Position numbers and translations under genes: made by a program. Shown here piece by piece: positions 2,332 through 25,881 of a stretch of 41,776 nt of DNA (position 1 is the first letter of the stretch; each line of letters begins with the position of its first letter). Location of the stretch: positions 1 through 41,776 of IMG/VR virus record IMGVR_UViG_3300020578_000169. The stretch is one strand, 5' to 3'. Below the pieces are notes generated by a model, which searched no databases, was not told where the DNA came from, and saw only the letters and a program-made list of their open reading frames with translations. The DNA is from a virus.

Positions 2332-2441
2332 TTATGTTCCGCCTTTCTGTGTCTGCTCAGTGTGTCGTGTGCAAATATGCCCCAACGAACCTCTATCTCT
2401 TTATTACAAATATCACAAATTACCACTTTGCCCTTTTGCAT
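2328..2441 (-). CDS. 37-residue C2H2-type zinc-finger protein
   Basis: This very short gene encodes 37 residues beginning MQKGKVVICDICNKEIEVRW. The pair C9-x2-C12 is followed by H31 and H36 in SRHRKAEH, giving a Cys2-His2 zinc-finger arrangement. The start ATG overlaps the TAA of the upstream HTH gene (TAATG), with GGCGGAG just upstream as ribosome binding site. Its TGA overlaps the GTG of the next gene. Coupling at both ends argues that it is translated. It may bind nucleic acid, since it sits in a replication-type cluster with other zinc and HTH proteins. No specific role can be assigned. Confidence 0.7.
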   Translation of the reverse strand: MQKGKVVICDICNKEIEVRWGIFAHDTLSRHRKAEHK

Positions 2442-2923
2442 TACTCCGCCTTCCATACAGGAACAAATTTGCCGTCACCAGTCTTAGTATACAATATTAA
2501 ATTGTGTTTGAGAATACCCTGTAATTCTGTTTTACTTGGAAGGGTATGGCTATACCCGCCCTCAAGTAAAAATTCATGCAAATCTATTATATCTTTCTGG
2601 CTAAGCATAAACTTAGTCCATTTAGACTGCGGATTACTAATTGGATATATTTTTTCTGGCTCTTTAATTTTGCCGTCTAAAATGTAATTCTCAATAGTAA
2701 CCTTATGCCTATTTAGAATTTCTCCAACCTGTTTAATGCTATACGCCATCTCTGCGTATTTTTCAATTAAAGAGTATGCGTAAAGCACACGCCTCTTGTC
2801 AGAGTAACACCAGGCAATTAATTCATCTTTGCCACGGTGTGTACGAATAGTCTTATGAACCTTCCCGTTTAGGAAGAAATATAAGAATTTTTTCTGTACT
2901 GCTCGTCTCTTTTTTCCAGCCAT
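2441..2923 (-). CDS. HTH DNA-binding protein, MerR/excisionase-like
   Basis: This is a 160-residue basic protein with a winged-helix/MerR-like helix-turn-helix. The segment YSIKQVGEILNRHKVTIENY (about 61-80) fits a recognition-helix pattern and is followed by a wing-like GKIKEPEKIYP, then a LSQKDIIDLHEFLL helix. The N-terminus is strongly basic (MAGKKRRAVQKKF). It could be a transcription regulator of the early genes or a replication-associated DNA-binding protein. The sequence does not decide between these. The ATG at 2923 has AGGAA just upstream and overlaps the zinc-ribbon gene by 55 nt, while the C-terminal stop overlaps the next start (TAATG). Confidence 0.7.
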   Translation of the reverse strand: MAGKKRRAVQKKFLYFFLNGKVHKTIRTHRGKDELIAWCYSDKRRVLYAYSLIEKYAEMAYSIKQVGEILNRHKVTIENYILDGKIKEPEKIYPISNPQSKWTKFMLSQKDIIDLHEFLLEGGYSHTLPSKTELQGILKHNLILYTKTGDGKFVPVWKAE

Positions 2924-3057
2924 TTTCCTAGTTTATTCGTATCCTTATTTAACATCCAACGTCTACCACACATAATACAGAATAGCTCTATATGCAATTT
3001 TTGAGAAAATACACGATCAATAAATACTCGTCCACCGCAACGCTGACACTGCATCAT
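2869..3057 (-). CDS. Small zinc-ribbon protein
   Basis: This 62-residue protein has two CxxC knuckles, CQRC (residues 4-7) and CIMC (27-30), separated by about 20 residues. This is the classic zinc-ribbon layout, followed by a charged C-terminal helix (NKLGKWLEKRDEQYRK). The start ATG at 3057 overlaps the TGA of the metallophosphatase gene (ATGA). A second ATG follows at once, so initiation may use either. The 3' end overlaps the start of the HTH gene by 55 nt in another frame, long but acceptable given the clear motif. It probably binds nucleic acid or protein. The function is unknown. Confidence 0.7.
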   Translation of the reverse strand: MMQCQRCGGRVFIDRVFSQKLHIELFCIMCGRRWMLNKDTNKLGKWLEKRDEQYRKNSYISS

Positions 3058-3860
3058 AGCTTAATCAGTTTCCCATCCACAACACATGAGTAGTCTGGGG
3101 ATACCTCAATCAATTGAATGTGTGGCCATTTGCCATTCTCAATATGCGCCACCGCAAATCCCTTTTGCCAATCGTGATGCTGCATATATTTCATTCCCGC
3201 AGACTTTGGATCACACATATGACCGATTTCGTATCCACGATTTGTTTCACCCTTGCCCTTATTCCTTAGCTCAAACGAAACAAAATAAGATGCAAGTCTG
3301 TGCGAATGACCACGGATTAGCGATACTCCGAGTTCTCCAACATCTTTTCTTACCGATCCAGTTTCAACAATTGAAATCCCGTGGTGAACATGAATATCCC
3401 CATAACGTTTTTTAGGCAAGTCGTTATAATATATGTAATCAAATCCATAATCGTCTAAACCCCACAAAGCATTGGGGGTGGCAATAGGAATAAATTCAGG
3501 AAGCTTAGCGTCCAAGTAATTAAATATTCTTATGTCGTGATTTCCCAGGGCTGTAAATAAGTCTGCGTCTTTTCCTGCTACCTCACGATTTCTTTTATAA
3601 AATTCTTTTGCTTGTTTTGCCTCATGCTCCATAATTGGCCAAATTGCGTTACCAAGTTTATCCTTATACATTTTTAAAAATTCTGCCGAACGTCCTTCTG
3701 TAAACCTGCTATAGCATGCCTGGTCGTCGGTGTCTCCTAAAATGTCCACCACATCTGGCTTGAACCATTCCATAACCTTGAACCAAAGTTCAATCATTTT
3801 ATTGTCTTGGTATGGGAATTGCTGATCGGATGATAGCATCCATTTTAAATCATTTGTCAT
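3054..3860 (-). CDS. Calcineurin-like metallophosphoesterase
   Basis: This is a 268-residue metallophosphoesterase. The visible motifs, in family order, are D12-Q-Q (in place of the usual D-x-H), GD (42-43) followed by DD, GNHD (106-109), HHG (159-161) and GHSH (184-187). These ligands normally hold a two-metal centre that hydrolyses phosphomono- or phosphodiesters. D-x-Q at the first motif is a variation that may alter metal choice. It is the first gene of the replication-type cluster, so it may act on nucleic acids or nucleotides, but the substrate is unknown. The start at 3860 has AAGGA five bases upstream. A promoter, dyad and terminator-like hairpin lie just before it. Confidence 0.85.
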   Translation of the reverse strand: MTNDLKWMLSSDQQFPYQDNKMIELWFKVMEWFKPDVVDILGDTDDQACYSRFTEGRSAEFLKMYKDKLGNAIWPIMEHEAKQAKEFYKRNREVAGKDADLFTALGNHDIRIFNYLDAKLPEFIPIATPNALWGLDDYGFDYIYYNDLPKKRYGDIHVHHGISIVETGSVRKDVGELGVSLIRGHSHRLASYFVSFELRNKGKGETNRGYEIGHMCDPKSAGMKYMQHHDWQKGFAVAHIENGKWPHIQLIEVSPDYSCVVDGKLIKL

Positions 3861-9461: not shown

Positions 9462-10286
9462 CTAAATTGGTTTTGAATACTCCGAATAATAGTTTTTGCC
9501 ATCGGTTCCAACAACAACAGCTCTAGCCCTAAGCCATCTTGCAGATGAGGTCGCTGGAGTGTCTCCCTGTGCTGAGCTTACTCTGTACTTCTTGTAAACG
9601 CCACTGTTTCCTACCTGCAAATTTTCTGTTGACGTATACTGTTTTGTTCCATAATTTAATGCAGCAGCATTTGTCTTATTGGTTTTACTAATAATCCATT
9701 CATAATACACAGAACTATGTGACCCAAGTCCAGAAACGTTATTCCATCCCCATGCTATAGCGGTTCCTGTTCTATCAAATTTAACTACTGGGATTGAGGG
9801 TGTTGGTGTTGTAAATTTAGCTCCACTTGAAGCAACGGCCACATAAGGATTTTTAAATCTTGTATCCTCTTTAGAATCATCAAATATTCTTACGTCTACC
9901 CCATCAACATTTGTAGGAGTCAAACTTCCATTTCTTACTTTTATAAATGCTCTAATTTTAATAAATTTAGTTACTGGGTCTTCGTACTCTTCAAAAGTTA
10001 CAGATTCTATATCAGTTAGTTGAACTAAATCTTTTTCTATTATTACTATACCAGTTGGACCCGTTACTCCTGTGTCCCCTGTATCCCCTGTAGCGCCAGT
10101 ACCTGGCGTAGAACTTACTGACCTAGGGGTATATAGGGGGACCGCACTAACAAAAATTTCAAGCTCGCCAGTCTCTGGATCAAAGACACGAACTTTATTT
10201 GGATTAAGAATGCCAGCAGTAATCAGCGGGCTATTTGCAGGAACCGCTGGCTGTCTGCTTTTATCTTGTCCATTTCCCTTTGTCAT
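9462..10286 (-). CDS. Minor tail protein with short collagen-like linker
   Basis: This is a 274-residue tail protein. The N-terminal section includes KVRVFDPETGELEIFVS. A short Gly-x-Thr collagen-like linker ([18 protein letters not shown], about residues 62-80) follows, then two beta-sandwich-like domains resembling fibronectin III (VYYEWIISKTNK, ARWLRARAVVVGTDGKNYY). The pieces suggest a flexible adaptor between the tail tip and fibres. The start at 10286 has no Shine-Dalgarno. Instead TATAAT ends 7 nt before the ATG, so it may be translated from a leaderless message. The gap to the upstream gene is 25 nt. Confidence 0.7.
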   Translation of the reverse strand: MTKGNGQDKSRQPAVPANSPLITAGILNPNKVRVFDPETGELEIFVSAVPLYTPRSVSSTPGTGATGDTGDTGVTGPTGIVIIEKDLVQLTDIESVTFEEYEDPVTKFIKIRAFIKVRNGSLTPTNVDGVDVRIFDDSKEDTRFKNPYVAVASSGAKFTTPTPSIPVVKFDRTGTAIAWGWNNVSGLGSHSSVYYEWIISKTNKTNAAALNYGTKQYTSTENLQVGNSGVYKKYRVSSAQGDTPATSSARWLRARAVVVGTDGKNYYSEYSKPI

Positions 10287-10293
10287 ATTTTTT

Positions 10294-10299
10294 ATTATA
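10294..10299 (-). promoter_or_regulatory. -10 hexamer placed for a leaderless start
   Basis: TATAAT lies exactly 7 nt upstream of the ATG at 10286, in a short A-rich gap lacking a Shine-Dalgarno. A transcript starting at the usual distance would begin at or next to the ATG. No good -35 is seen, which is tolerated in actinobacterial promoters of the TAnnnT type. Confidence 0.5.
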
Positions 10300-10311
10300 C
10301 CATTTAGTCGA

Positions 10312-12342
10312 CTATAGTGTTCGACAGGTTAAGCTTGTCACCAACCCTTCATTAAACTCGTGTTGAACTCTTGTAACAATAAACTTTTCTGTTCCAAGAA
10401 TTCCTTGATAAACATATTTAATGGAAACTATATCACTAACAGCAATTAGCGGGTTGCCAAAAACCTCCATCTCAATAACTTTCCCTTTATTAATCACGGA
10501 TCGTTTAATCCAATCGCCTAAAAGCTTAGCGTCTTCTTCAGTTTGAATCCACGATGAGGAAAATGTAATTGGCTCTAAATACTGGAAATCGGTATCATTT
10601 ACTGTTGTATATTCTTGCTCCTCTCCTCTTTGAACCTTGTTTCCATAGACAAAAGCACTTTCCATTGGAACTGAGGTGGATGTGTTATTCATAACATATG
10701 CCTCTGCATTAAAATTACTCATTTTAATAGACAGCACTGATATGTTCTTGCTAGTACCTGCAATAAATCCACTGGGCTTGGAGGGGCCTTCAAATCTAGA
10801 ACTAAATTTATGTATCTCTCTGGCCGTTGTTCCAAACTCTTCTACCGCCGAAGGCTTCTTGTCAATAAGGTCTATATCGTTTTGATTAAAATTTTGATTA
10901 TAAACAAGATCTCCGTATGCTGCATCTAGGTAGTCGTTGGAGAACTGCCCAGCGTAGATATCTTTTTCAAAAGTAAATTTATTAAATTCTGTATCTTCTA
11001 TCTTTCTGGCATACACGTAATCAAACATAACTTTACCCATTGTGGAAAATAAACCTACGCCTTTTGATGGAGGAATTATTGTAGGCAACTTTAATGCATA
11101 ATCAATACTGTCATAAACATTTACCCTAAATCCATTGACGTCAACTATCATTTGTAATTGTGTAGGTGTTGCTTTTACTCTTACCGCAATATTATATATT
11201 TGACCGCCTTGAATATTTGCTAAAGTTCCAGCAGTCTTATCTCCTTTTACTGAAATAGCTTTTCCAGCTTTATTTCTTAAAACTGAATTCTGGGTGTCTG
11301 CCAAAACTCTCATTTCTTTTCCATTTGTTTTTACAACTCGCAAATCGTTTTCTCGTAAGTCTGCTGCAAGAGCTCCTGAATCTAATATTACAAAGTATCC
11401 CGTTTCTGCTGAGTTAGATAAAAAGAATCCTATGCCGCCGCCACCTCTTCCTATTTGAGACTGCTCCTTGCCTTGCTCGGCATTCGATATCATCATTGAA
11501 GTTCCAAATGCATAATAGGATGTATCAAAACTATTTATAGTTTTAGTTATAGTTGTAGATCCTTTTTTAAGCCCAGATGTTGAGACTTGAGATATTGAAG
11601 GAATTTCTAAATCAAAATCTTTATAAGCAATTTGAAAGCTAGTTTTAGTTCTACTGTCGTTTGTTATTTGCAAATAAGATTTACCAATTGTTTTCTTATT
11701 TGGATCAATTGGAGAAGTTTTATTTTGAGTAGCCTTATTTAATATCTTAGTTATATAATTATAATAAGTAGCAACAGTCCCTCTATTAGCCGATAAATTA
11801 GGGGTTGGACTAAATGCCTGTATAAAAAAATCATACTTTCTTCCAGAGCCCAAATTTTTAATTATAATTAAATGTTTTGCTGTCGCAGATGTATTTAATG
11901 CTCCTGCTGTTACACCTTCTGAATTGCGTTGTATTGTAAATGTATTAGTAGACACTGCTGTTATTCTTCTGCTAGTAACATTAAATCTGAGTAGGGCAGA
12001 GCCTTGAATTGTTACATAGTCTCCAACATTAAATGGATGTCCTGTTGCTGTATACACTATGGTAGTGCCTGAACAGGCTACTGAAGTTACGTTTACATTT
12101 TTGTAAAATACTTGTTCTGGACTTACAGTGCCTTCTAGAGTTTGGTTGTCTAAAGCGTAAAGCTGATACTTGACTACATACCCAACTGGATCTATTGACA
12201 TATCTATTTCGTCTACCGATACCAGAACAGATACACTTGTTTCCCCAGCTATTGGAAAATCTGCAACTATTGGATTATAAATTATATCAAGGCCTGTTGT
12301 TGGTCCGCCGCCACCGTCTGCAATAACGTGTGGTCTACTCAT
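10312..12342 (-). CDS. Tail hub-associated protein with LamG-like domain
   Basis: This tail protein has about 676 residues. The N-terminus is Gly-rich (IADGGGGPTTG) followed by strand-rich segments. The centre (about 265-450) resembles a concanavalin/LamG sandwich, with GIGFFLSNSAETGYFVIL, YNIAVRVKA and FRVNVYD strands that may bind sugar. The C-terminus (WIKRSVINKGKVIEMEVFGN, then VSDIVSIKYVYQG and FIVTRVQHEFNEGLVTSL) resembles the end of baseplate hub/Tal-like minor tail proteins. I place the start at 12342, where ATG overlaps the previous TGA (ATGA). The ATG at 12369 is an alternative. The next gene upstream is the likely hub protein, so these two probably pack together at the tail tip. 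Confidence 0.75.
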   Translation of the reverse strand: MSRPHVIADGGGGPTTGLDIIYNPIVADFPIAGETSVSVLVSVDEIDMSIDPVGYVVKYQLYALDNQTLEGTVSPEQVFYKNVNVTSVACSGTTIVYTATGHPFNVGDYVTIQGSALLRFNVTSRRITAVSTNTFTIQRNSEGVTAGALNTSATAKHLIIIKNLGSGRKYDFFIQAFSPTPNLSANRGTVATYYNYITKILNKATQNKTSPIDPNKKTIGKSYLQITNDSRTKTSFQIAYKDFDLEIPSISQVSTSGLKKGSTTITKTINSFDTSYYAFGTSMMISNAEQGKEQSQIGRGGGGIGFFLSNSAETGYFVILDSGALAADLRENDLRVVKTNGKEMRVLADTQNSVLRNKAGKAISVKGDKTAGTLANIQGGQIYNIAVRVKATPTQLQMIVDVNGFRVNVYDSIDYALKLPTIIPPSKGVGLFSTMGKVMFDYVYARKIEDTEFNKFTFEKDIYAGQFSNDYLDAAYGDLVYNQNFNQNDIDLIDKKPSAVEEFGTTAREIHKFSSRFEGPSKPSGFIAGTSKNISVLSIKMSNFNAEAYVMNNTSTSVPMESAFVYGNKVQRGEEQEYTTVNDTDFQYLEPITFSSSWIQTEEDAKLLGDWIKRSVINKGKVIEMEVFGNPLIAVSDIVSIKYVYQGILGTEKFIVTRVQHEFNEGLVTSLTCRTL

Positions 12343-14612
12343 GATAAGATCATCAACCTTTCTGACCATCCTGCTGAATATATAATATCGTTTGGAACAA
12401 CTTTGTGCGCCGCAGGCTTTGTGCCAAGCGCACCTCTGGTTTTTACTCTATATCTACCGCTTGGCTTAAAATATGCCGTGTTTGCGTAATTATTTAAATC
12501 AGCAGCGCCTGGTTTTGACAACGCCAAATATCTATCAACGTCTGCTTGTGAAGATATCCAAACAGAAAACCTGTTTGAATTTCTATCTGTATATTCGTAT
12601 TCTACTGCATCATATTCAATAATTTCGTCATCTATTAAAAAATAACCAGAAAAACTTGTAATTATTGGGCTAGCTCCGTACTCATCCATAATTGAATTGT
12701 TTATTATAAGAGTTGTATTTTCCGCAACTGTGTCCGCTTCTATCGGATACGCTAGTCCACCTGCTGCTAAAAATGACACTGCGGGTTGTGCGAGAGGTTC
12801 TGAATCTCCTAAATATTCGGTAGGAACTATAGGAGTATAAATAATTTTTGTTTGATTTGCAGAAGATATTTCGGTTTGAGTTAATCCTATTATATTGGGC
12901 AGAATCTCTCCTTCTGGTTTTTCATAAAAATTCCATAGGGTAGAGTTTAAAGCAGAGTATATTTTATCTCTAGAATAAAATTGAAGAATATTGTCTTCAT
13001 CAAAGAAAGCATTCATTTGTATATCTCTACATAGTTCTTGAAGAATTTCCCATACTGTTCTTGTTTCATCCGTCCACCAATATTGAATTGTAGGTATAGA
13101 TGTGTCTGTAGATTGAACTTGCCCGCCAGAAATTGATGTAAGCATATTAATATTATAGTTTGTAAAACCTACTGAGTCTAAAAGAATTCTTATAATTGCT
13201 GTTGCGGAGTATCTTTCTAACAATAGATTTGCGGGAACTATTTCCATTAAATACTTTGAGCCGTCAAGCGCACTTAATGATGTATTTCCATATTGATCTA
13301 TTTGCCAGCTATCTGCATAATACGTTCCTTGTGGAACTTCGTGAGTTTTGGTAGCTCCAGTTATTTTAAAGTATGGTTTAATTTCTGCATTCTTGACCAT
13401 GTATATAAAGTCAAACTCTGTAACCCCAGATCCAGTATTCCATCCACTAGATCTATTGTATGGAACAATCATAAGTTGATCTTGATTATAGTTGGACAAA
13501 GAAGCAGTTAATGTATTTGCAGATATTTTGCCAACTGGCAGAATATCTTCTGATGAGGAGGATGACTCTTTGGTTATGTCAGACATAACCATTGCGCTTG
13601 TTATATCCTTAATCCATCTTGCAGAAACTTCTATTACGGCCATGACTGCAGTTGCTGACGGAGCCACCGCTTCTATTCTAATAGATTTGATAAACTTTGG
13701 ATTGCTATATTCATTTGATGTAGAGGTTGTCCATGCCCCACTGGCAGGTGCGTATAGGGTGACGTTCCCAGAAGTATAGGATGCTGGTGTTACGGTTGTA
13801 GTTTGCTCCGTATCGTCTAAATATTTTATTTTTACAATAACAGATGAAGGCATATCATGGGTTTTATCAAATTTAACGATGACCTTATTTGCAATTGCTG
13901 GCTTTGTAGACCTTGCAGTTTCATCTGTTTCGCTTACAATTAATGTGGCGGTACCAGATTGACCAGTTATTTTATTTGACGCAGCAATTTGTTTGGAGAT
14001 GACAAATGTTTTTGTGTCTGGAACTTCAGAAATTATTCCTTTAATATTAAAACTGGTGTTGGAGAGACCAATAATTTTTACAACATCATTGACAATAAAT
14101 CCATGTGGATTGCTTGTTGTATATTTTACTTTTTCATATGTTGGATTTGCTGAAGACGCTTCTGTAATAGAAGCAGCTGTTTGAACATACTTTACATTTA
14201 CTATTCCGTTCTTGCCTTCAGGAGAAACCCAGTATTTATATTTTGCACTAAACCCTGGATAGTATATTCTTGCTGTTCCTAAATTATAATATGCTGATTT
14301 CGGGTCTTTATAATTAAAATTAGTAGAGTTATTTGGAATGATAAAGTATTTAATTCCAGAGCCTATTGGTCTAAATGGTCTAATTATGGCATCTACGGGA
14401 AATAGTTTTTTGTATGGGTTTCCTTTTTTCCACCCGCCAGTAATTGCAGATGTATAATCTGAGTCCAGGTTTTCTGTATAGACCGATATATTATCGATCA
14501 TCGTATTCATGTTATATTCGATAGAGCAACCCAGTCCAGCGGAAACTGAATAAGATCTATTTATTGTATCTTTTACTTCTTGTGTATCTTGTGCATTTGC
14601 TAAGGTAATCAT
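12339..14612 (-). CDS. Baseplate hub/minor tail protein
   Basis: This tail protein has about 757 residues and lies after the tape measure and a Dit-sized protein, the usual place for the hub. A segment reading TVWEILQELCRDIQMNAFFD followed by EDNILQFYSRDKIY matches the gp27/gp44-like hub pattern (W..L..L....... f.De...l.f.sr). A later SGYFLIDDEIIEYDAVEY is a known minor-tail motif. N-terminal domains are beta-rich. I use the ATG at 14612, which overlaps the previous stop (TAATG) and has AGAGG upstream. A start at 14645 would add 11 residues. It probably forms the trimeric ring around the tape measure end and carries the distal fibres. Confidence 0.75.
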   Translation of the reverse strand: MITLANAQDTQEVKDTINRSYSVSAGLGCSIEYNMNTMIDNISVYTENLDSDYTSAITGGWKKGNPYKKLFPVDAIIRPFRPIGSGIKYFIIPNNSTNFNYKDPKSAYYNLGTARIYYPGFSAKYKYWVSPEGKNGIVNVKYVQTAASITEASSANPTYEKVKYTTSNPHGFIVNDVVKIIGLSNTSFNIKGIISEVPDTKTFVISKQIAASNKITGQSGTATLIVSETDETARSTKPAIANKVIVKFDKTHDMPSSVIVKIKYLDDTEQTTTVTPASYTSGNVTLYAPASGAWTTSTSNEYSNPKFIKSIRIEAVAPSATAVMAVIEVSARWIKDITSAMVMSDITKESSSSSEDILPVGKISANTLTASLSNYNQDQLMIVPYNRSSGWNTGSGVTEFDFIYMVKNAEIKPYFKITGATKTHEVPQGTYYADSWQIDQYGNTSLSALDGSKYLMEIVPANLLLERYSATAIIRILLDSVGFTNYNINMLTSISGGQVQSTDTSIPTIQYWWTDETRTVWEILQELCRDIQMNAFFDEDNILQFYSRDKIYSALNSTLWNFYEKPEGEILPNIIGLTQTEISSANQTKIIYTPIVPTEYLGDSEPLAQPAVSFLAAGGLAYPIEADTVAENTTLIINNSIMDEYGASPIITSFSGYFLIDDEIIEYDAVEYEYTDRNSNRFSVWISSQADVDRYLALSKPGAADLNNYANTAYFKPSGRYRVKTRGALGTKPAAHKVVPNDIIYSAGWSERLMILS

Positions 14613-15064
14613 TATACCTCTTCCATAGATGCAGATACATTCCAATGTGCTTCTACGCCACGTTTAATTAAATTAAAAGAACACTCTCTAAACATTACCA
14701 ATATGGGTGTTGCTGTAGATGATTGGTCTGTCCCGTCTATAGAATAATTAATTTTAATTTTAAAAGCACCCTTTCCAATTCCTTCGTAAAAAGATTTAAG
14801 TTCCACTGCTCCCCATCCGCCATCAACGGTAAAAGCGGTGGTGGAGGGAAGTAAAGCCCAAGATGTTGTATATATTCTTTTATCTGTTACATAATATTTT
14901 CTTAAAGTACCATTTGCCATTCTAACAGATTGTTCAATTCTATTATTGCCCACTAAAAACTCTTGTCTATTATGTTCTGACATTTTCTGCCAGGATGGGG
15001 TGGAGGTAAGAGAGGTATCAAAATATAATACAGAACCTTTAGGCAATACTAATGGATATGTCAT
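14612..15064 (-). CDS. Distal tail (Dit-like) protein candidate
   Basis: This is a 150-residue protein immediately downstream of the tape measure gene, overlapping it by 4 nt (ATGA). Its position and size fit a short distal tail or hub-adaptor protein. The sequence is beta-rich (RKYYVTDKRIYTTSWALLPS, AVELKSFYEGIGKGAFKIKINYS), ending in ECSFNLIKRGVEAHWNVSASMEEV, which resembles the strand pattern of tail-tube-like proteins. It may form the ring that ends the tail tube before the hub. The assignment rests on order and general character rather than a specific motif. Confidence 0.6.
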   Translation of the reverse strand: MTYPLVLPKGSVLYFDTSLTSTPSWQKMSEHNRQEFLVGNNRIEQSVRMANGTLRKYYVTDKRIYTTSWALLPSTTAFTVDGGWGAVELKSFYEGIGKGAFKIKINYSIDGTDQSSTATPILVMFRECSFNLIKRGVEAHWNVSASMEEV

Positions 15065-18000
15065 GACGCTATCATGCTTCCTCTTCTTCTAGATTCACCA
15101 ACAGACTTGTTGGCTAAGCTATTCAATTCCTTGATAGCCTGAATTGTTCTTCTTGTGGCCACATCGGCAAGTTGATTGACATCCATACCTTCCGCAGCCT
15201 TAATATCGTTATTGACTACAAATGTGTTTCCACCAGACATTGTAGCATTTTGTAGAGACTTTACATAGTCTGTAGGATATACGGACTCTGTTTTTGCTCT
15301 TAATACCCCTGCAACCTCAGTGCCATATGGCCCTGGGACTTCTCCTCGTAATGAGTGGAATTTCTGAATATATCCGCCTCCCGCAAATTTACCAATAGCC
15401 TTATCTTTAAATATTTTTGTAAGACTTGCCATTTGTTCTGCCAATTCAAGCGGCATTCTAAGGTCTAGGTCTGGCCTAGCGTCTGTCATATCTCTAAGAA
15501 CAAGTTGAATAAGTTTTTTAATTGGATAGACGGAATTAGTGCCTAAGCTTTCAGCAACACGACTAATGCCCCGATAAGCATTCATTAAAAACTCTTCGTC
15601 TTTAAGCAACTCAAGAGGATTCCCTTCGTTATCATAAGAATATCTGCCAAACGATGCTTTACCCATTAACATTTTAAAGTTATGTTTTAACTTTAACATA
15701 TGAGAAGGATCTGAAAATAGGTCTGGGAATGGGCCCGACTTGTCAAAAGCAAATCCAAAGTCTAAGGCTCCTAGTCTTGCTCCCACTTTAGACATTATTA
15801 AATTGCCTTCATTTTGGAACGTATCTACACTTTTAATTAGAGAAACAAACCCAGCTAGTCTTCCAACATCTTCAGCAAGTTGTGCCCTCAATATTTCTGG
15901 TTCTGGCAAAACATAGCCTGCTTTAAATACATTTGATAATGCTTCATCTGTGCCAAATAAACCAAGAGAGGATTCTTTTCCAAATCTGTCTAGAACAGTT
16001 TCATATCCCAATTTGCTAAAGTCTTCGCTTAAAATTACTGGGCTTAGTATGTCTCCGCCTCTAAATCCTAAAGTATTTCTGGGGGATGGTATTCCCAAAT
16101 ATCTTGCAAGTCTTGATCCATAAAGCTCATTGAATATTTCCATATAAGAGGTCTTAATTTGAAGGTCTGGATGAAAACCCTTTTCAAAGAACTTTGCGCC
16201 AGTTGCTGGGTCTTGAAGTATTCTCATTAATGCTGCATGTATGCCTACTGTTGGCCTTAATATTTCGTCAGGATTATCGGCTGACCTTAACGGATTAAAC
16301 GTTGAGGTATCTAAAAGTCCTCGTTTAGATACAACTTCTGCAATTGCTTTAGCTAAAGATTGATTTATATGTCCACTACTTACGGTTTCAAGTATGGATT
16401 CTTTTGTTGTAAGTACACTTCCTCTTTGCGCCTGTCTAGCAATAATATAACTAACAAGATCATCATAACTATAACTTCCAGAAATTCCAATTTTTTTCAA
16501 GATATCCATAATTGGACCTACATATGATCCAGCAACTTGGTCGTCTGTGCGTAGCTGATTAATTGGAATATCTTGATTCATTCCTTTTGCTGATGTGACA
16601 GGAGTCTTCTTTGATGGGAACATCTCACGGTTTCTCGCTACTTTATCATCAAAGTATTTTTCTCCCTTCTTAAATGGATACAATAACATTGCATCTTCAA
16701 AAGCAGCTTGATCAGCTGCTGCTTTTGCTTCACGTGCTGCTATTTGTGAAGGAGTTGTAGTGGCCCAAGGATCTGGTTTGTCCAAGCCACGTTTTCTTGC
16801 TCTGAAATCTAATCCGCCTCGTCTCAATGCCAATTGTCTAGCAACCTCATCTGGATCAACTCCCCTAGAAAGAAGATAATTTATAAAACTTTTTTCTTGA
16901 GGGTGTGCTCTTACAAAGTCTTTATGAATTTTGCCAAGATTAGGGGTTTTGGGGACTGCTGCCGAAGGAAGCGCTGGCTTACTGCTAGATAATTTACTTA
17001 GTGCAGAAGTTATCTTTTGATCTGCTGTTGTTCCAAAATTAGCAAATCCAGATTTTAATTTAGATCCTATTTGCGCTACACCTGGAATTTTACTGTATGG
17101 CAAAAATGCTAATCCTGTAAATACATTGTCTCCAAGACTTGATTTCATAGGAGCGCCCATTGCTCTTGCAGCAAGCATGCTCACTGGATTTCCGTAATTC
17201 ATAAAGTCTTGAGCAGTTTTGCCCATTGATGGTAATCCAAAGAAGTTAGATGTCTGTTCCCAATTCTTTTTATCTGCTAGTCCACCTAATGCTGAATCTA
17301 TTCTGTCTAAGAAGCTACGACTTTTTACCTTACCGCCTTTATCATATTTAGAAAGTCCCATTAATCCACCAAAGGCAAATCCTCTAGGATTCATAAATCC
17401 AAGCTTTCTTGCCAACAATGGATCTGTTTTAATAATTTTTACTAAGTCTTTATAGACTTGATATATTAATTCATTTTCGGCAAACTTTGCCATATATGCG
17501 TCATATACAGAAATATTTTCTGGTCCTGCTATTCCAGAGAATAAATCTGGGGCATTTAATCCTGGGGAATCCCACGTTCCAAAACCACTTGTTTGTCCTT
17601 GAACTCCTACTTCTGGATTATTTACTATCTTGTAAAATTCATCATCTAAGAATCTTCTAGAGGGATCTCTATCTTTATATTTAGTAAAATCGTCTGGCTC
17701 AACATTTGCAACAAAATCTTTCCAATCTTTTTCTATTGCCTCCCGCCTTGTAGTCGACCCGCTACCAGAAATTTTTTTCATTTCCTGCATGCCAGCGTTA
17801 TATTCGCCTACGGTTTCCTTGCTATTTTTATATTTACCAGCTTGTCTTTTCCAGAACCTAGAATGGTCTCTATACATTTTGGCAAGATAAATGGCCTGTC
17901 TTGCATCATTTGGCTTTTGTGGAATAACACCTATAGTTTTGGTTACTCTATCTATTGCATCATGAATTGAAGACTTTGCTAATGTGTCCCCAAACGGATC

Positions 18001-21000
18001 ATCAAATGATTTGTTTGTAAGTCCTAGATACTCCATTGTATTATCAAACGTTCTACTTATTGCGCTTGAAGCATTTTTTACTTTATCCCCAATGGCTGGG
18101 ATAAAGTCTTTAAACTTATTAATTGCAGCTTTTCCAAGTTTACGTAATATTTCTCCGCCCATTGAGAATCCTGGGATATGTCCGCCTTTAGCCATAGTTA
18201 ACATTCCACCAAATCCAACTCCACCGCCAAACAATCCTTTAAATGGCACTGATCCAAGCGTGTCTCGTGGCTCTGCAGGAAGACCAATTCCACCAGATTG
18301 AGACGGTAGTTCAATACTAACTCTTCGTTTCTTGGACATATCAACCGAATCAAATGATTTTCCGTATTCCCCTTCGGCTACTGGAATAAATGTTGTTCCT
18401 GGCAATAGCTCTGAGAGTATAGCGGATACAGTTTCTGCCCTTCTCTTGGACAAGGCCATATTGTAATCTCTGCTGCCACGTCTATCGGCATATCCTTTAA
18501 CAAGAAATGTTTTTCTAAATCCTGGAGCAGAAGCTATCTTTGCTGCAATTAATTGAAGTTCTCTTATTTCTGAATCTTGTAGCGTTGATTTATCTGTCTG
18601 GAAATTAACTGAAAGGTCTCCAAGCATTCTGAAATAATCTAATGCTTGATCGTAACCTTGTGTCATTGATCTCTTCTTTGGCATTCCGCCTTTAGCGTAT
18701 CCATTAAGTAATCTAGAAGCAGCTTCAACAATTCCATCCGCTCCCTTTTGATTAATCAGGTGCATGTTGTCTACACCAGCATTAGCAACAGAATTTGCAT
18801 TAATCATAAATTCGCCCTGAGATGCACGAATCAATATATCATCTGATGTCGGGGTTCCTGGGCCTTTAACTTTTCCGCCTGGACCGTAGTACTGTACCTG
18901 TCCCCCAGAAGCCAATTTTTTAAGAGTAACTCTATCTCCAGTTACATTTGTTATTTCATAACGCTTTCCACCAGTTGTAGGAAATTGAGCTCCCTCAACT
19001 GGAGCAATATCTGAGTTTTCTAAATCCTTTACGCTTGTTTGGTAAACTACTCCCCCCGCTGCACCTGGCGGTTTGAAGCCCTTGATTAATTTATCATCTA
19101 AAGGCTTTTGAGTTGTGCCAGCAAATTTATTTACAGCAGCAACAAAGTTGTTTACGGCATCAGAAAATGTTTTATTTTGAGCAGCTCTTGATCTAAGGTC
19201 TGCATTTAAATTATCTACTAAAGTTTGAGAGAAAGATTTTCCTTTTATAAATGTAGAACCAGTTGCAACATCAGGAGTTGCTGGATTTGCTTTTCTCATT
19301 TCACGTCCAACTTTTCTAAGGTACCCGCCAGCATCTTCCATCTCTTTAAATATATTTTCAATTCTCATAGAATCTGTGCTGCTAAGTGGCTTGTTTATGC
19401 TTCTCAAAGCAATCATCTCAAGCTCATCTCTGTAGGCTTGGGCCTGAGCAAGAGTGGCTGCCTTATCTGCCGCTGCTGCTGTTTTGGCTGCGGCATTTTT
19501 ATTAGCATTATCAAGTTCTTCTTGCAGCTTATCTTTTTCAGCTTGCAATTTTTCAATCTCATCATTATACTTGTCTGCGATAGCTGTACGGAGAATTTCT
19601 CTTTGTCTGTCAGAAGAGAGTTGTTTTATATTTAATTGTTCTTGTGCCGCTTGGGCTAGGTTGCCAGCAGTAAGCGCTTGTTGATATTTAATTTGAGCAT
19701 TCTGCATTTGATTTTCAAATGTAAAAGCTTTTTCTTGAGTATCTATTAACTTGAGTCTTTCGTCTCTTTCTTTTTGAAGCTTGGCAATAAGTTTATCTAT
19801 AGCCTTCATTTTTTCTCTATAATAATCTTCATCTACCTTTTTTAATCTTTTTACAGCGGCAGCAGCATTACCTGCTTCAGTCTTTAGCCTTGCAATTTCT
19901 ACAGAAAGAGGGGAAATTGAATTTCTAAATTTGTCATTAGGATCCGTGTCTTCAGTAACCGAATTCATTATATTTTGAACATCAGCAAAATTCTTAGCCA
20001 ATGCAATTGCTGCGTCGGCACCCATTGCGCCTAAGTTTACTATTTCGGCTAGGCCTCCTGCATACAAAAGAATTTTTGCGGTAATACTTTCAAGAGTTTC
20101 AGCGTTCCCTAAAATTCCAGCATAAACTATGTTTTGAGATTTTAGTTGGTCTATTTGCTCTTCATTTAGCTTTGACTGTGCACCTTTAATTTTACTAATT
20201 TTTTCTAAGGTTTCTGCTGTTGCGTCTGCTTCATCTCGTATATTTTTTTGTTCGTCTTTTGCTCCAATTAAAGAATCTCTATAATTAAGTACAGAATTTA
20301 ACAAAGTGTCAAGACCCCTATTGAACTCTTCAGAATTAAAGGTGTCTCCAGTAGACTTTCCTAAATAATCTATTACAAATTTAATTCCATCAAGAGTTGT
20401 TTGAATTGAATTAAAATCTTTAGAAGTTATTGCAGAGAATGCTTGGCTGGCTTTATCTGAAGCTTTTACTATTGCATATATTTGGTTTGTTGCATCTTGT
20501 GCAGACATTCCCATAGCAATAAATTGTGCTTTTAGCTGGGCAGCGTATGCTACTACACGACTAGGGTCTATGTTATCAAAGGCCTCTACGTATTCCTTTT
20601 GTTCTTTTCTTGCCTTTTCAACTGCTTCTCTTAATTGTTCTATCGTCAAGCTTAATCCAGCAACTCCAGTTTTTGTATATGACTGATATACAGACTTAAC
20701 TTTAGCCTTGTGTAACTCAAGTTCATCATTTATGCTTTTTATTCTATCTTTTATGCTTGTATAGGACTTTATTCCTACAGAAGCAAAGGATTCTTTTGTG
20801 CCTCCAAATGCTAGCCTGTTTGCTTTTCCTAAATCTTCCGCTCTTTTCTTAGCGTCTAAAAGAAGTTTTCCTATTCCAATAAGAGTAGTTATAACTATTC
20901 CTGGTATTGTTATGCTTTTTAAAATCTTTGCAAGTCCGCCTGCAACTCTTGCTGCTTTTATAAGTTGTGGTAAAAACATAGCCATGTATCCAAGTGAGCT

Positions 21001-24000
21001 ACCAACCATCATTCCAACAGGTCCAAAATTTTGTCCAGCCATGCTTCCGCCTATGCTACCTGCTATTCCCAACGCTTGAGACCCCATACCCATAAACATT
21101 GGAAGCTTAGCCACAGGACCGTCTCCTGCTGCTCCTGCTACCCCTGAAACAACGGACGTAGGCGATATTGGCAAACCTTCTCCTGGAGCCTGGAATGGGA
21201 TATTAAATGCTGCTGGTGTAGGAGCTAGGGCTGGATTAACTGCGGATCTGCCTCTTAATGCTCCAGTAATTGTTGTCCAGAGTGCTCTTAAAATTCCACC
21301 AAGATTTTTATATTGCATTCCTGGAATTTTTTTACCGCCAACTAAACCACCAGTATTGTATCCACGAATCCTTCCACCAGAGTTTGCCGCAACCCAATTT
21401 GCCCAGTCTGGATTAGCGGAATGTAATGCAATTGTATTGTCTTTTTTTGAACCTTCAAACTTTTTTACAGTAAGAGTTCTGTTTCCAACTTTTATCTTAA
21501 TATTTCTTGGAGAAGAAGAGGCTCCGCTGTCTGAGCCGCTTGGTCTATTTTTATCAATTGAAGAAAATGTTTTTTGAAAAGCATTCCACCAAGGCAATAT
21601 AGAATCTCTTGATGTAGAATTTTCTATTGCATTTCTTGATATTTGATAATATGGATTTGTATCATCTCCAACTGAGCTCATCTTGCTTACTGCGTTTGCA
21701 TAATTAACAGATAAGTCATCAAGAATATCATTTGCTTCTTTTCTTGTTATAATTCCGCCATTTACTAATGTTTCAACAAATTCATCTGTTGTTCCGATTA
21801 CATTTCTCTTTGAATTTTTACCCTTAGCATATTGCTTTAATGAATTTAAAAGTTCTGAAGGGCTCGCTGTTCCTTTTGCCAATCTTTCATTTAATCCAGA
21901 TCCAACTCCAACACCGTACACTCCAGTAGGCGGCTTTGCATTCCAAGTAGTTCCAGCCGCAGCATCTTTTCCTCCTGTCCAAGAAGAATCAAGTTTTTTA
22001 ATCTGTTTTTTAGTTCCTACAAACTTTAATGGATTCTTAAGTCCAACTCTTCTAATTGGATTAATTGCAGCAAACTTTTGAATTCTAGGAATTAGCCCAC
22101 CAATCTTTCTAAGAACTATTCTTCCAGAATTTATATCCTCAAGTGTTTGGAAATTGTTTCCTTGATTTACAATTTCTGGATCAACTGCAAATTCTTCTGG
22201 GGTAAGCATTACTGGCTGCAAACTACCACCGCCTGCCATAGGTCTTGCAGTTCCAACTAATGAACTAAGAAAATCAATATTATTTGCTGTAGCCTCTTTA
22301 TTTACAATATATGTTCCTGCAGGAAGCATTCCAAATTGTGTATCTGTTGTGTCTGAAGATGGGCCTGGGACGATTGGACCGTCATTAAGAGTGTAAGGAA
22401 TAGTACCACCAGTCTGTCTCCTAATAATTGGTCTTGTTGTTTCTATATTATATCCAGCACCAGATGTTCTTACTCTTAAACGATCTGCAATTCTTGTTAA
22501 GAAACTTCTTTTTTCTGCCTTATGGAAAAGCTCTTTCATATTTGTTTTACCAGTTATTGGATCTACTGATGGCTGTGTGGATGTTGGGACTGTGTACGGA
22601 TCAAATACAGCTCCTCGGGATGCCGCCAAAACAGATACATCTCTTGCCATTTCTTGTTCAATTAAAATGTTTAACTGTATAATTCTATCCCTAGCAGCAG
22701 CAATGCTCATTTTGCCTGCTTGAACTTGTGCTACAATTTCCGCAGATTCATTAGCGGCCTTTTGAGCCAACCTAGTTGTAATAGGAAGAATGTCATCAAA
22801 AGTTCCCATAAAGTCTGTTGTTAGTGCTCCTGTGTTGTTAAGAGTATTCTGTAGTATTCTTAATTCATCTTTTGATTGCATTGCAAGGGCTGCCATCATG
22901 GCATGATTCTTTGCAACTTCATCTGCCACAACTCCAGTTGAAACTGTAATTGGCGCTCTTCCTGTGGGTGTTTTTATAGTTCTTTGTACTGCAGTTAATC
23001 CAGGAATTACTGGCATGTCCCCAGTTGCATATATCATTGGATTTTCGCCAAGCAATGAATTTACGGGTCCAGCTGATTGAGTTACTCCAAATATTGTTCC
23101 TGGTTGATCTATTTTTCTAGGAACCATATGAGCAAATGCTCTAGACTGATATGCTCCAGCTAATGGGTGTTTGGGATCTACTTCTCTTGGAATTCCGCCG
23201 CCTGCTACATAATTTCCAGCAACTGTACTTATTGCTCCAGTTCCTACTGCCGCCCTATTTGCTGCAGCTCCAAGTCCTTCATACGATGCCGTCAAATCAA
23301 GAATTGCTTTTTGTAAAATTCCTGCTGCCTGAGCATCTGAGTAAAATGTTTTTTCTATTAATGTACCAGCATTGTTTGCTGCCATAATTTCTGGTGTTAA
23401 TAGTTTCCAGCCTTCTGCTCCCTTAAACAGTGCTTTGAAATGATATATACCCTTTACTATATATCCAAAAAAGTTTCCAAGAACACCAGTAAGCATAATT
23501 ACTGGACCTACCACTGCAGTAAATGCGCCAGCTAATCCAAATATTTTTTTAATAGGATCTGGTAAATTGTTTATAAAGGTAATTATTTTATCCAAAGAAT
23601 TTACAACCTTTGTTGCAATTCCCAGGAACTGCTCGCCAGTTTTAGCTAAATCTGCTTTTAGCGTTTCTATTGCTCTCTTATATTTACCTGAAGCTGACTC
23701 TGTTACTTGCGACAACTCTCGGCCAGCTATATCAGCCAAATCTTGGCTGCTTGCTTTCATTAAATCTAATATTTGTAAAGTTTGACTTCCCTGTTTTCCT
23801 AAGTTTGAGAACAATGCATTTAAACGAGCAAACTGAAATTTGCCAAATAACTGCTCTAGTGCCTGTTGCTTTTGTAATGGGTCAAGCGTTTCTAATGCTG
23901 ATTGTAGTCCTAAAATAGTTTTTGTTAAGTTGCCAGCATTTTCTGTTACAATTGCCCTTAAGTCAATTCCAAAATCTGCAAACATTGCGGTTGCAACTTT

Positions 24001-25155
24001 TGTTGGATTAATCAAAGAAGCAAGAGATGATTTAATTGCGTTGGCGCCCTCTGCAGCATTTACTCCACCTTCACGCATAGCTGTGAGGTATAAAGCAAGG
24101 TCTTGTACGCTTCCTCCCAAACCTTGAACAACCGTACCAGCCCTAGGTATGGCTTCTACTAAGTCATTAAGAGTTGTTGATGTTTGGTTTTCAACTGCGT
24201 TTAAAAAGTTAATTGATTCTGCTAGTTGTTCTGTATTTTGCTTAAATGTTGACTGAATGGCAAGGGTTGCCTTCATTGCTTCTTGTCTATCTACTTCGCC
24301 AAGTACTGCAAGACGAGTTGTTTCTGAAATTGATCCCAGCAATTCATTTCCAGTTTTACCAGTTGCTGCAATATCGGCGGCAAGGGCAATTGTGTCTTTA
24401 AAATTAACACCCATTGTGGTAGACAATTGTCTTGCTGTGTCCGATACATCTTTTCTCACCCTAGCAAGGGTTTCTGCTGAAGCTCCGCCTAAATCTCCAT
24501 AAACCTTAGTTAAACGAACTAGCTGTTCGTCTGCTGCCTTAAATGCATCTGCTGAAGCCTTGCCAAAAGCTACAAGCGGAATTGTAAGTCCTACCGTTAA
24601 CTGACGACCAGCCCACTGAGTATTTTTACCCCAATTAATAAGTTGTCCTGCTCCATCTTGAACAACCTTGTTCATAATGGCCAACTCTTGACGAGTTAAA
24701 GATGTTTTATTTCTTATTTCATCTAAGCCCCGAGGAACATGCACCGCAAAACGCATCATTCCTTCTGCGTTTTTACCTAGTGGTTGAAGTACCGCATTTT
24801 GCATTTGTACTTGCTGCTTAGCAAGATCTCTAATTAATCCGCCTGCGGTTCTGTTGTGATCTTGCCAGACTTTAAAGTACTGGCCAAGCTTCATTTTTCC
24901 TGAGTCTAGACTTTTACCAAACTTCTCTACATCTGAAGAGATGGTTACGAAATGGGATGTGAACTGACCTGTGCTGCGTAAGGTCTCACCAAACTGAGTA
25001 TTAACTGCACGTATCTGATTTGCAAGAGCTCTGTCTGTAGACTTGAGTCCTGCCTGCATACGAGTGAGCGCTGCCGTTACTTTATTTAAATCTCCAATGA
25101 GATTAGAAAAGTCGGCATTAGCAACTATATTAGTTACAATTTGCTCGTCAGCCAT
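15061..25155 (-). CDS. Tape measure protein, 3364 residues, multidomain
   Basis: This very large tape measure protein sets tail length and probably moves into the host envelope during DNA injection. Residues about 100-520 are the TP901-type phage minor tail core (GVNFKDTIALAADIAATGKTG, LYLTAMREGGVNAAEGANAI). Hydrophobic segments lie near 535-562 and 1350-1440. A strong coiled coil covers about 1745-1910. An OmpA-like peptidoglycan-binding domain spans about 2185-2280 (GYADRRGSRDYNMALSKRRA, D2224). A region near 2970-3230 resembles a HipA/PI3-4-kinase-like fold (E3010, N3118, LDFGFAF around D3132). Gly-rich KGG/GGxV linkers recur between blocks, including GPGTPTSDDI. At the usual 0.15 nm per residue the tail would be up to about 500 nm, less if the inserted domains do not count. 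The stop overlaps the next start by 4 nt. Confidence 0.93.
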   Translation of the reverse strand: MADEQIVTNIVANADFSNLIGDLNKVTAALTRMQAGLKSTDRALANQIRAVNTQFGETLRSTGQFTSHFVTISSDVEKFGKSLDSGKMKLGQYFKVWQDHNRTAGGLIRDLAKQQVQMQNAVLQPLGKNAEGMMRFAVHVPRGLDEIRNKTSLTRQELAIMNKVVQDGAGQLINWGKNTQWAGRQLTVGLTIPLVAFGKASADAFKAADEQLVRLTKVYGDLGGASAETLARVRKDVSDTARQLSTTMGVNFKDTIALAADIAATGKTGNELLGSISETTRLAVLGEVDRQEAMKATLAIQSTFKQNTEQLAESINFLNAVENQTSTTLNDLVEAIPRAGTVVQGLGGSVQDLALYLTAMREGGVNAAEGANAIKSSLASLINPTKVATAMFADFGIDLRAIVTENAGNLTKTILGLQSALETLDPLQKQQALEQLFGKFQFARLNALFSNLGKQGSQTLQILDLMKASSQDLADIAGRELSQVTESASGKYKRAIETLKADLAKTGEQFLGIATKVVNSLDKIITFINNLPDPIKKIFGLAGAFTAVVGPVIMLTGVLGNFFGYIVKGIYHFKALFKGAEGWKLLTPEIMAANNAGTLIEKTFYSDAQAAGILQKAILDLTASYEGLGAAANRAAVGTGAISTVAGNYVAGGGIPREVDPKHPLAGAYQSRAFAHMVPRKIDQPGTIFGVTQSAGPVNSLLGENPMIYATGDMPVIPGLTAVQRTIKTPTGRAPITVSTGVVADEVAKNHAMMAALAMQSKDELRILQNTLNNTGALTTDFMGTFDDILPITTRLAQKAANESAEIVAQVQAGKMSIAAARDRIIQLNILIEQEMARDVSVLAASRGAVFDPYTVPTSTQPSVDPITGKTNMKELFHKAEKRSFLTRIADRLRVRTSGAGYNIETTRPIIRRQTGGTIPYTLNDGPIVPGPSSDTTDTQFGMLPAGTYIVNKEATANNIDFLSSLVGTARPMAGGGSLQPVMLTPEEFAVDPEIVNQGNNFQTLEDINSGRIVLRKIGGLIPRIQKFAAINPIRRVGLKNPLKFVGTKKQIKKLDSSWTGGKDAAAGTTWNAKPPTGVYGVGVGSGLNERLAKGTASPSELLNSLKQYAKGKNSKRNVIGTTDEFVETLVNGGIITRKEANDILDDLSVNYANAVSKMSSVGDDTNPYYQISRNAIENSTSRDSILPWWNAFQKTFSSIDKNRPSGSDSGASSSPRNIKIKVGNRTLTVKKFEGSKKDNTIALHSANPDWANWVAANSGGRIRGYNTGGLVGGKKIPGMQYKNLGGILRALWTTITGALRGRSAVNPALAPTPAAFNIPFQAPGEGLPISPTSVVSGVAGAAGDGPVAKLPMFMGMGSQALGIAGSIGGSMAGQNFGPVGMMVGSSLGYMAMFLPQLIKAARVAGGLAKILKSITIPGIVITTLIGIGKLLLDAKKRAEDLGKANRLAFGGTKESFASVGIKSYTSIKDRIKSINDELELHKAKVKSVYQSYTKTGVAGLSLTIEQLREAVEKARKEQKEYVEAFDNIDPSRVVAYAAQLKAQFIAMGMSAQDATNQIYAIVKASDKASQAFSAITSKDFNSIQTTLDGIKFVIDYLGKSTGDTFNSEEFNRGLDTLLNSVLNYRDSLIGAKDEQKNIRDEADATAETLEKISKIKGAQSKLNEEQIDQLKSQNIVYAGILGNAETLESITAKILLYAGGLAEIVNLGAMGADAAIALAKNFADVQNIMNSVTEDTDPNDKFRNSISPLSVEIARLKTEAGNAAAAVKRLKKVDEDYYREKMKAIDKLIAKLQKERDERLKLIDTQEKAFTFENQMQNAQIKYQQALTAGNLAQAAQEQLNIKQLSSDRQREILRTAIADKYNDEIEKLQAEKDKLQEELDNANKNAAAKTAAAADKAATLAQAQAYRDELEMIALRSINKPLSSTDSMRIENIFKEMEDAGGYLRKVGREMRKANPATPDVATGSTFIKGKSFSQTLVDNLNADLRSRAAQNKTFSDAVNNFVAAVNKFAGTTQKPLDDKLIKGFKPPGAAGGVVYQTSVKDLENSDIAPVEGAQFPTTGGKRYEITNVTGDRVTLKKLASGGQVQYYGPGGKVKGPGTPTSDDILIRASQGEFMINANSVANAGVDNMHLINQKGADGIVEAASRLLNGYAKGGMPKKRSMTQGYDQALDYFRMLGDLSVNFQTDKSTLQDSEIRELQLIAAKIASAPGFRKTFLVKGYADRRGSRDYNMALSKRRAETVSAILSELLPGTTFIPVAEGEYGKSFDSVDMSKKRRVSIELPSQSGGIGLPAEPRDTLGSVPFKGLFGGGVGFGGMLTMAKGGHIPGFSMGGEILRKLGKAAINKFKDFIPAIGDKVKNASSAISRTFDNTMEYLGLTNKSFDDPFGDTLAKSSIHDAIDRVTKTIGVIPQKPNDARQAIYLAKMYRDHSRFWKRQAGKYKNSKETVGEYNAGMQEMKKISGSGSTTRREAIEKDWKDFVANVEPDDFTKYKDRDPSRRFLDDEFYKIVNNPEVGVQGQTSGFGTWDSPGLNAPDLFSGIAGPENISVYDAYMAKFAENELIYQVYKDLVKIIKTDPLLARKLGFMNPRGFAFGGLMGLSKYDKGGKVKSRSFLDRIDSALGGLADKKNWEQTSNFFGLPSMGKTAQDFMNYGNPVSMLAARAMGAPMKSSLGDNVFTGLAFLPYSKIPGVAQIGSKLKSGFANFGTTADQKITSALSKLSSSKPALPSAAVPKTPNLGKIHKDFVRAHPQEKSFINYLLSRGVDPDEVARQLALRRGGLDFRARKRGLDKPDPWATTTPSQIAAREAKAAADQAAFEDAMLLYPFKKGEKYFDDKVARNREMFPSKKTPVTSAKGMNQDIPINQLRTDDQVAGSYVGPIMDILKKIGISGSYSYDDLVSYIIARQAQRGSVLTTKESILETVSSGHINQSLAKAIAEVVSKRGLLDTSTFNPLRSADNPDEILRPTVGIHAALMRILQDPATGAKFFEKGFHPDLQIKTSYMEIFNELYGSRLARYLGIPSPRNTLGFRGGDILSPVILSEDFSKLGYETVLDRFGKESSLGLFGTDEALSNVFKAGYVLPEPEILRAQLAEDVGRLAGFVSLIKSVDTFQNEGNLIMSKVGARLGALDFGFAFDKSGPFPDLFSDPSHMLKLKHNFKMLMGKASFGRYSYDNEGNPLELLKDEEFLMNAYRGISRVAESLGTNSVYPIKKLIQLVLRDMTDARPDLDLRMPLELAEQMASLTKIFKDKAIGKFAGGGYIQKFHSLRGEVPGPYGTEVAGVLRAKTESVYPTDYVKSLQNATMSGGNTFVVNNDIKAAEGMDVNQLADVATRRTIQAIKELNSLANKSVGESRRRGSMIAS

Positions 25156-25166
25156 TTATCTGTGTG

Positions 25167-25825
25167 TTACCCCTGCTCATATCCTAACCCCATTCCGATA
25201 CCAAAGCCTGCTTGAGCGGCGAGAGGACCTTGTAGTGATACCACATCATCTCCTCTTGCTTTTATTCCCAAGGCTTTTCTTTGAACATCTTCAAAGGTAG
25301 AACCTTCGTTTTGTAATTCGTCATCTAAGTTAATGCCTTGAAGACCTGCCAAGAATTTTCTTTTTTCTTCTTCCGTCTTCTGCATTGCCTTAAACGTCTG
25401 GACTAGTTCTGGCATTGAGAGGTTATCCTCTAACTCCTCGTAATTTTTCCAATTACCGAGAAGAAAGACCTCCCCAAGTAAAGCGGCTAAATCTAGTTCT
25501 GCCCAGCCAGAACCGCTGCCGCTAGAAGATTTGGGTCGTCCATCTTAATTCCACCGCAAATTTCTAGAATACGGTTAATTGTTGGTACGTCCAAAGCATC
25601 TTCTAACTTGTCCTTATCTTTTACAAGATCAGGAAGCTGTTTTTCAAGTGCAACTGCACATGCTTCAATGAGAATTGTCAAAGTCTCATCTTCTGTTTTT
25701 GCATCGGCAGTCTTTTGTACTGCCGCCATGAACTTACGAAGTTCCTTAATCGTTAATGGCTTTAGTTTAGCCTTATCTCCATTTTGGAGCTCTATTTCTT
25801 CTACGTCGTATACTTTAGTAGCCAA
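25167..25825 (-). CDS. Tail assembly chaperone G-T fusion by -1 frameshift
   Basis: This is the long form of the tail assembly chaperone pair, made by a -1 ribosomal slip at 25529-25535. The first 99 residues are shared with the short form. After the heptamer, reading continues in the -1 frame as SSSGSGSGWAELDLAALLG, then NWKNYEELEDNLSMPELVQT, ending at 25167 for about 219 residues in all. The -1 frame is open from the slip site to the end. The Ser/Gly linker and the MPELVQTF...KRKFLAGLQGINLDDE region resemble the T domain of known siphovirus fusions. It would bind the tape measure protein (encoded next) and guide tail tube polymerisation. Confidence 0.85.
25482..25535 (-). promoter_or_regulatory. 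Programmed -1 frameshift signal
   Basis: The heptamer C CCA AAT (25535-25529) is in the zero frame of the chaperone gene and fits X XXY YYZ. Five bases downstream a stem begins: AGCGGC (25523-25518) pairs with GCCGCT (25487-25482). It encloses an inner hairpin, GTTCTG (25513-25508) with CAGAAC (25501-25496). This spacing and nesting suit a stimulatory structure. The zero-frame stop lies inside it. Confidence 0.8.
25493..25825 (-). CDS. Tail assembly chaperone, short form (G)
   Basis: This is a 110-residue chaperone located between the tail tube and tape measure genes, the usual place for gpG-like proteins. It has a beta-rich start (KVYDVEEIELQNGDKAKLKPL), then a helical body (TIKELRKFMAAVQKT, ETLTILIEACAVALEKQLPD) and the conserved-type ending EICGGIKMDDPNLLAAAVLAGQN. 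I choose the TTG at 25825 because AAGGAGG stands five bases upstream. An ATG at 25870 would add 15 residues and lie within the promoter. Most ribosomes stop here, and a fraction shift at the C CCA AAT heptamer to make the longer form. Confidence 0.85.
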   Translation of the reverse strand: MATKVYDVEEIELQNGDKAKLKPLTIKELRKFMAAVQKTADAKTEDETLTILIEACAVALEKQLPDLVKDKDKLEDALDVPTINRILEICGGIKMDDPNLLAAAVLAGQN

Positions 25826-25852
25826 TGTATCCTCCTTCGGATAGTTATAAAC

Positions 25853-25881
25853 ATTATAACAAATAGACATTACTAATACAA
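25853..25881 (-). promoter_or_regulatory. Promoter for chaperone and tape measure genes
   Basis: TTGTAT (25881-25876) is followed after 17 bp by a perfect TATAAT (25858-25853). The predicted start near 25846 gives a short leader carrying AAGGAGG before the TTG at 25825. It lies 14 bp downstream of the terminator that ends the tail tube unit. Confidence 0.55.

Follow-up and report, generated by a model that had tools for sequence, protein, structure and literature searches.

A Pal-Like OmpA C-Terminal Domain in the Tape Measure Protein of a Phage

OmpA-type domains are normally used by bacteria to hold on to their own cell wall, and the question raised by this locus is whether such a domain is genuinely embedded in a phage tape measure protein (TMP) and what it could be doing there. 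The stretch of DNA analyzed, termed the window, is a viral record of 41,776 bases with a GC content of 38.5%. Its largest open reading frame (ORF), a single frame of 3364 aa on the minus strand (15061..25155), is scored as a tape measure in a profile search (Pfam PF10145, E = 1.8e-27) and is matched by many PHROG tape-measure families, the best of which is PHROG 10030 (E = 5e-121). The window displays the TMP gene order of siphophages, comprising a major tail protein, chaperone-like genes, the TMP, and distal tail genes, an arrangement shared with the Streptomyces phage Tomas. Two small genes (25167-25415 and 25493-25870, minus strand) lie between an Ig-domain tail protein and the TMP, the position at which tail assembly chaperones sit, often with use of a frameshift.

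An OmpA/Pal fold within the tape measure

Two families, PF10145 and OmpA, are the only ones above the Pfam cut-off in the window TMP. The original prediction described an OmpA C-terminal motif at residues ~2185-2280, and the profile search borne by that segment agrees: PF00691 matches residues 2185-2249 with 41.6 bits (E = 1.6e-10) when the whole protein is searched and with 47.1 bits (E = 3.1e-12) when the segment is searched alone, compared with a curated cut-off of 27.2 bits. A genome search returns a single OmpA match in the whole record (E = 4.7e-14). The Pfam match spans positions 2-66 of the 98-position profile, with the remaining third supported by alignment and by a structural model, and the OmpA/Pal-type domain is accordingly assigned to residues ~2181-2286 (18298..18615, minus strand), slightly longer than the Pfam match and taking in the final strand, RRVSIEL. 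The motifs that had been named are present, VNFQTDKS from residue 2183 and GYADRRG from residue 2221. Gly-rich linkers flank the domain (11 Gly in residues 2051-2100 and 14 in residues 2301-2350), and the nearest strong coiled-coil-like stretch lies at ~1866-1918, as expected of the separate module, far from the coiled coil, that had been proposed.

The fold is that of the Pal/OmpA C-terminal domain. A phmmer search against solved structures matches OmpA/Pal domains, with a best E value of 4.6e-6. An AlphaFold2 model of the segment, for which the alignment input was nine cellular OmpA domains, has a pTM of 0.74 and a mean pLDDT of 79.6, rising to ~89-94 at segment residues 41-80, the part that bears the motif. 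The modelled order of elements is E-H-E-H-E-H-E, the α/β arrangement of the Pal/OmpA C-terminal fold. With this model as the query, Foldseek returns Escherichia coli Pal (1oap) first (E = 3e-7), and the matches include the complex of Acinetobacter baumannii OmpA with a diaminopimelate (DAP) peptide (3td5) and Mycobacterium tuberculosis OmpATb (2kgw). There are 112 PDB matches at E <= 0.001, and the best 50 of the 112 are mostly OmpA, Pal, MotB, and YfiB domains. The segment is thus confirmed as a genuine OmpA C-terminal (Pal-like) domain.

The likeness to Pal, A. baumannii OmpA, and OmpATb extends from the fold and core motif to the Asp/Arg ligand pair. In A. baumannii OmpA, the DAP ligands are Asp271 and Arg286 (PMC5974059). 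In the phage domain, residues D2224, N2232, R2238, and R2239 were located, and D2224 and R2239 reproduce the D-x14-R spacing of Asp271 and Arg286 in the same motif (18439..18486, minus strand). Across 11 diverse OmpA/Pal domains, eight alignment columns do not vary, and the phage domain retains all of them, those of D2224, N2232, and R2239 among them, despite an identity to these domains of only ~26-35%. The original prediction had singled out D2224 and a following Arg; that Arg is R2239, and both residues fall in invariant columns. Judged by this alignment, the phage domain carries the predicted DAP-ligand pair D2224/R2239. What differs from the OmpA/Pal envelope proteins is the setting. Those proteins are located in the outer membrane or anchored to a membrane, whereas the phage copy is found mid-tape measure, in a virus that probably infects actinobacteria, and the chain that bears it, being a phage tape measure, has neither an outer-membrane barrel nor a lipid anchor.

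The variable region that holds the domain

Relatives of the TMP are encoded in 65 IMG/VR loci, and they have in common the N-terminal 1,020 residues, the coiled-coil part (~1446-1905), and a C-terminal piece. The conserved N-terminal part (residues 1-1021; 22092..25155, minus strand) is ~45-93% identical in most of these relatives. The conserved C terminus (residues 3257-3364, 108 aa; 15064..15387, minus strand) is 65% identical to that of loci L003 and L004, with weaker matches in most of the other complete relatives. Between the coiled coil and this C terminus lies a variable cassette region (residues ~2174-3256; 15388..18636, minus strand) containing the OmpA domain, an undefined stretch, and a possible kinase-like stretch. 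Of the relatives whose sequence extends across the cassette region, L003 and L004 are the closest (68-75% identical). Their homology to the window TMP ends at residues 2157 and 2173 and restarts at 3242 and 3257, respectively, so that unrelated sequence takes the place of ~1,080 residues, the OmpA domain among them. Residues 2300-3257 have no relative in any of the loci that were fetched. Seemingly complete TMP ORFs range from ~2150 to 4190 aa across the relatives, a spread indicating that the slot is highly variable. The L003 TMP is read in two frames (10001-13066 and 13431-18788) with a break near residue 1005, which may be a sequencing error.

The cassette is covered by no second contig, since coverage by L002 ends at TMP residue 1473 and that by L049 at residue 351, and an assembly artifact joining two phages within the TMP has to be considered. 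Such a chimera is highly improbable, however, given that the reading frame is continuous on both sides, the genes flanking the TMP on both sides are syntenic with and similar to those of L003 and L004, and the TMP C terminus belongs to the same family. Proteins encoded by L049 (contig 3300020204_000477) share 99-100% identity with the products of the window head and tail genes, which indicates that the same phage was sampled twice.

Other tenants are observed in the corresponding region of relatives. A Gly-rich element, GPGTPTSDDILIRASQGEFMINANSV, is positioned ahead of the OmpA domain, and cognate Gly-rich elements are positioned ahead of inserted modules in L017, L020, L036, and Tomas. In L017 and L060, this region holds a LysM domain (PF01476; E = 3e-9 and 9e-9; 7.3e-8 on the segment). 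The TMP of Tomas (Stanwilliamsviridae), an isolated relative that is 34% identical to the window TMP over residues 55-624, has an M23 peptidase at residues 1908-2004 of 2094 (E = 1.6e-24); this domain follows the element GEYMMKKGAVNKYG, which resembles GEFMINANSVANAG in the window, and precedes the Tomas C terminus. Tomas, L017, and L060 thus share with the window a homologous N-terminal part and a module placed after a Gly-rich element and before the C terminus, and differ from it in that the module is an M23 peptidase in Tomas and LysM in L017 and L060. In L009, the corresponding region is short and has no evident module. On sequence grounds, then, predicted wall-directed domains recur in the TMP slot without being universal, and the OmpA domain is one occupant of a cassette slot in which such domains are often found. 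A slot of this kind would let phages exchange wall tools within a structural protein while retaining the ruler.

Further features of these TMPs were noted. The HExxH metallopeptidase-like motifs HEFGH (L017, residues 3314-3668) and HEILH (L020:12800-13798) were recognized by eye in the TMP cassette and have no Pfam profile support, and a CHAP-like reading of L017 residues 2704-2979 was dropped for want of a profile match. In many relatives, a predicted R-S-ExE ADP-ribosyltransferase (ART) insert separates the N-terminal part from the coiled coil (L017:8854-9462, L065:14240-14848, L004:13970-14659, and other loci). Its alignment contains the invariant motifs R-G, S-W-S-x-N, and N-E-x-E, and Foldseek matches it to C3-type ARTs (E ~1e-4, probability 1.00), with weak Pfam matches (0.09-0.10). 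The window TMP is without this insert. Within the window cassette, residues ~2960-3240 (15438-16278, minus strand) contain a stretch picked out by eye as kinase-like (NEGNLIM ... LDFGFAF) that has no relative in Pfam, the PDB, phages, or IMG/VR; its reading as a kinase is a guess.

Possible roles during entry

The hosts are likely to be actinobacteria. The TMP N terminus matches TMPs in 239 phage records from Streptomyces, Gordonia, Rhodococcus, Tsukamurella, and Nocardia, and WhiB genes are present in 8 of the 36 relatives' contigs examined (the window itself excluded); in the control set, the WhiB family is positive solely in Corynebacterium. With probable actinobacterial hosts, an outer-membrane role for the domain is unlikely.

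Wall-directed modules are known from other tape measures. Wall-cutting domains occur in the TMPs of T5, TM4, and other phages (PMC6116005), and the wall-active motif of the TM4 TMP is dispensable, yet aids infection of stationary cells (PMC1796659). The window TMP resembles TM4-type tape measures (mt3) and T5 pb2 in having a wall-directed module, expected to aid entry, within the TMP. It is unlike them in that the module is of a binding type and Pfam searches of the entire TMP, and of segments 2300-2860 and 2860-3260 separately, detect no hydrolase family, so the suggestion that the domain guides wall penetration, in the sense of cutting, finds no support. Peptidoglycan-cutting domains are known in tape measures; a binding-type OmpA domain in a further tape measure turned up in no library searched.

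The reading that we favor, and regard as probable, is that the OmpA domain serves as a peptidoglycan anchor without catalytic activity and comes into play as the distal end of the TMP leaves the tail. The original prediction, which had suggested anchoring of the tail end to the wall, is largely in line with this mechanism. The replacement of the cassette, together with LysM and M23 domains in the corresponding region of relatives, favors a wall-directed role. The domain was probably gained as a single module of a cassette that is open to exchange and makes up part of the distal TMP half. In lambda, the C-terminal end of the TMP occupies the tip of the tail, and channel formation by the TMP has been proposed (PMC10721106). 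By analogy with lambda and other siphophages, the window TMP would lie inside the tail tube of the virion with its C-terminal end tipward and would exit the tube after adsorption. The OmpA domain, carried on flexible Gly-rich linkers, would then refold in the wall, where D2224 and R2239 would bind the peptide stem of peptidoglycan, presuming meso-DAP in the target wall. The emerging TMP conduit would thereby be held in the wall, and the parts flanking the domain would stay aligned for DNA entry. With an OmpA domain in a TMP, the idea that a phage tail anchors itself in the wall can be tested directly.

Wall-type domains in tails are, in themselves, no proof of wall binding, because the LysM domains of phage baseplates can have a role that is solely structural, as in gp16 of A-1(L) and gp53 of T4 (PMC10966104). 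Similarly, the OmpA domain could make packing or oligomer contacts at the tip of the tail, or be a tolerated spacer inside the virion, with no binding to the wall during entry. Inserts in TMPs can alter tail length, and deletion of a 114-aa motif in TM4 gives a tail ~20 nm shorter (PMC1796659). A mere spacer would have no need of the intact D2224, N2232, and R2239, however, and the whole segment is dispensed with in relatives, and a purely structural module is considered unlikely.

The distal cassette could instead be an injected multi-domain effector, in which case the OmpA domain, once delivered, would act on an envelope protein of the host or compete with it. Phages are known to inject polyvalent proteins (PMC5512222), and the predicted ART insert and HExxH motifs in the TMPs of relatives would fit such a cargo. 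OmpA domains are binders rather than enzymes, though, and in the window phage the ART insert is absent and the kinase-like stretch lacks profile support, which makes this role for the domain distinctly unlikely. A broader proposal combines anchoring with delivery: the distal half of the TMP would be a cargo bay in which an OmpA or LysM anchor or an M23 hydrolase serves wall crossing and enzyme modules, namely, the predicted ADP-ribosyltransferase in relatives and the possible kinase in the window, are delivered into the host with the DNA. This proposal is tentative and somewhat doubtful; if it is true, the tape measure would combine the functions of ruler, conduit, and injected multi-effector protein.

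Distribution of the domain

The original prediction raised the question of whether other long-tailed phages carry the domain, and none was found to do so in the related records or the IMG/VR scans. PF00691 is present in 0 of 50 related viral records, and the OmpA segment has no close relatives in IMG/VR. A strict scan of IMG/VR for the OmpA motif yields 106 stretches, in ORFs of at most 911 aa, none of which (0 of 106) is in a tape measure; in a looser scan, the longest ORF among the matches listed is 647 aa. These scans demand exact codon patterns and may leave out records very near the window, so rarity is supported rather than proven. No paper linking a tape measure with an OmpA domain was found in the open-access literature, and the case rests on a single sequence from one phage.

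This restriction to one phage would fit a piece of a host gene that was captured and is carried with no selected role. Such a passenger is very unlikely, however, considering that the frame is open over 3364 codons, that the invariant positions are kept despite low identity to any sampled homologue, and that domain and window are alike in GC content (39.0% and 38.5%, respectively), giving no sign of an obviously recent import. The anchoring role outlined above remains the preferred reading.

Elsewhere among viruses, OmpA domains are found in free-standing proteins. The matches in phage GenBank records, where ORFs were read, are free-standing OmpA-type proteins, and a search of a structural library of viral proteins yields that type only. 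Proteins of this kind, exemplified by one from Cellulophaga phage phi17:2, PHROG 7897, and the ~620-aa protein of L193, are likewise virus-encoded OmpA proteins and are unlike the window protein in being separate proteins of 300-650 aa and not tape measures. The ~620-aa viral proteins, encoded in L193, L197, L205, L243, L277, and other loci, begin with a hydrophobic stretch at the N terminus, are conserved in the middle, and end in an OmpA domain.
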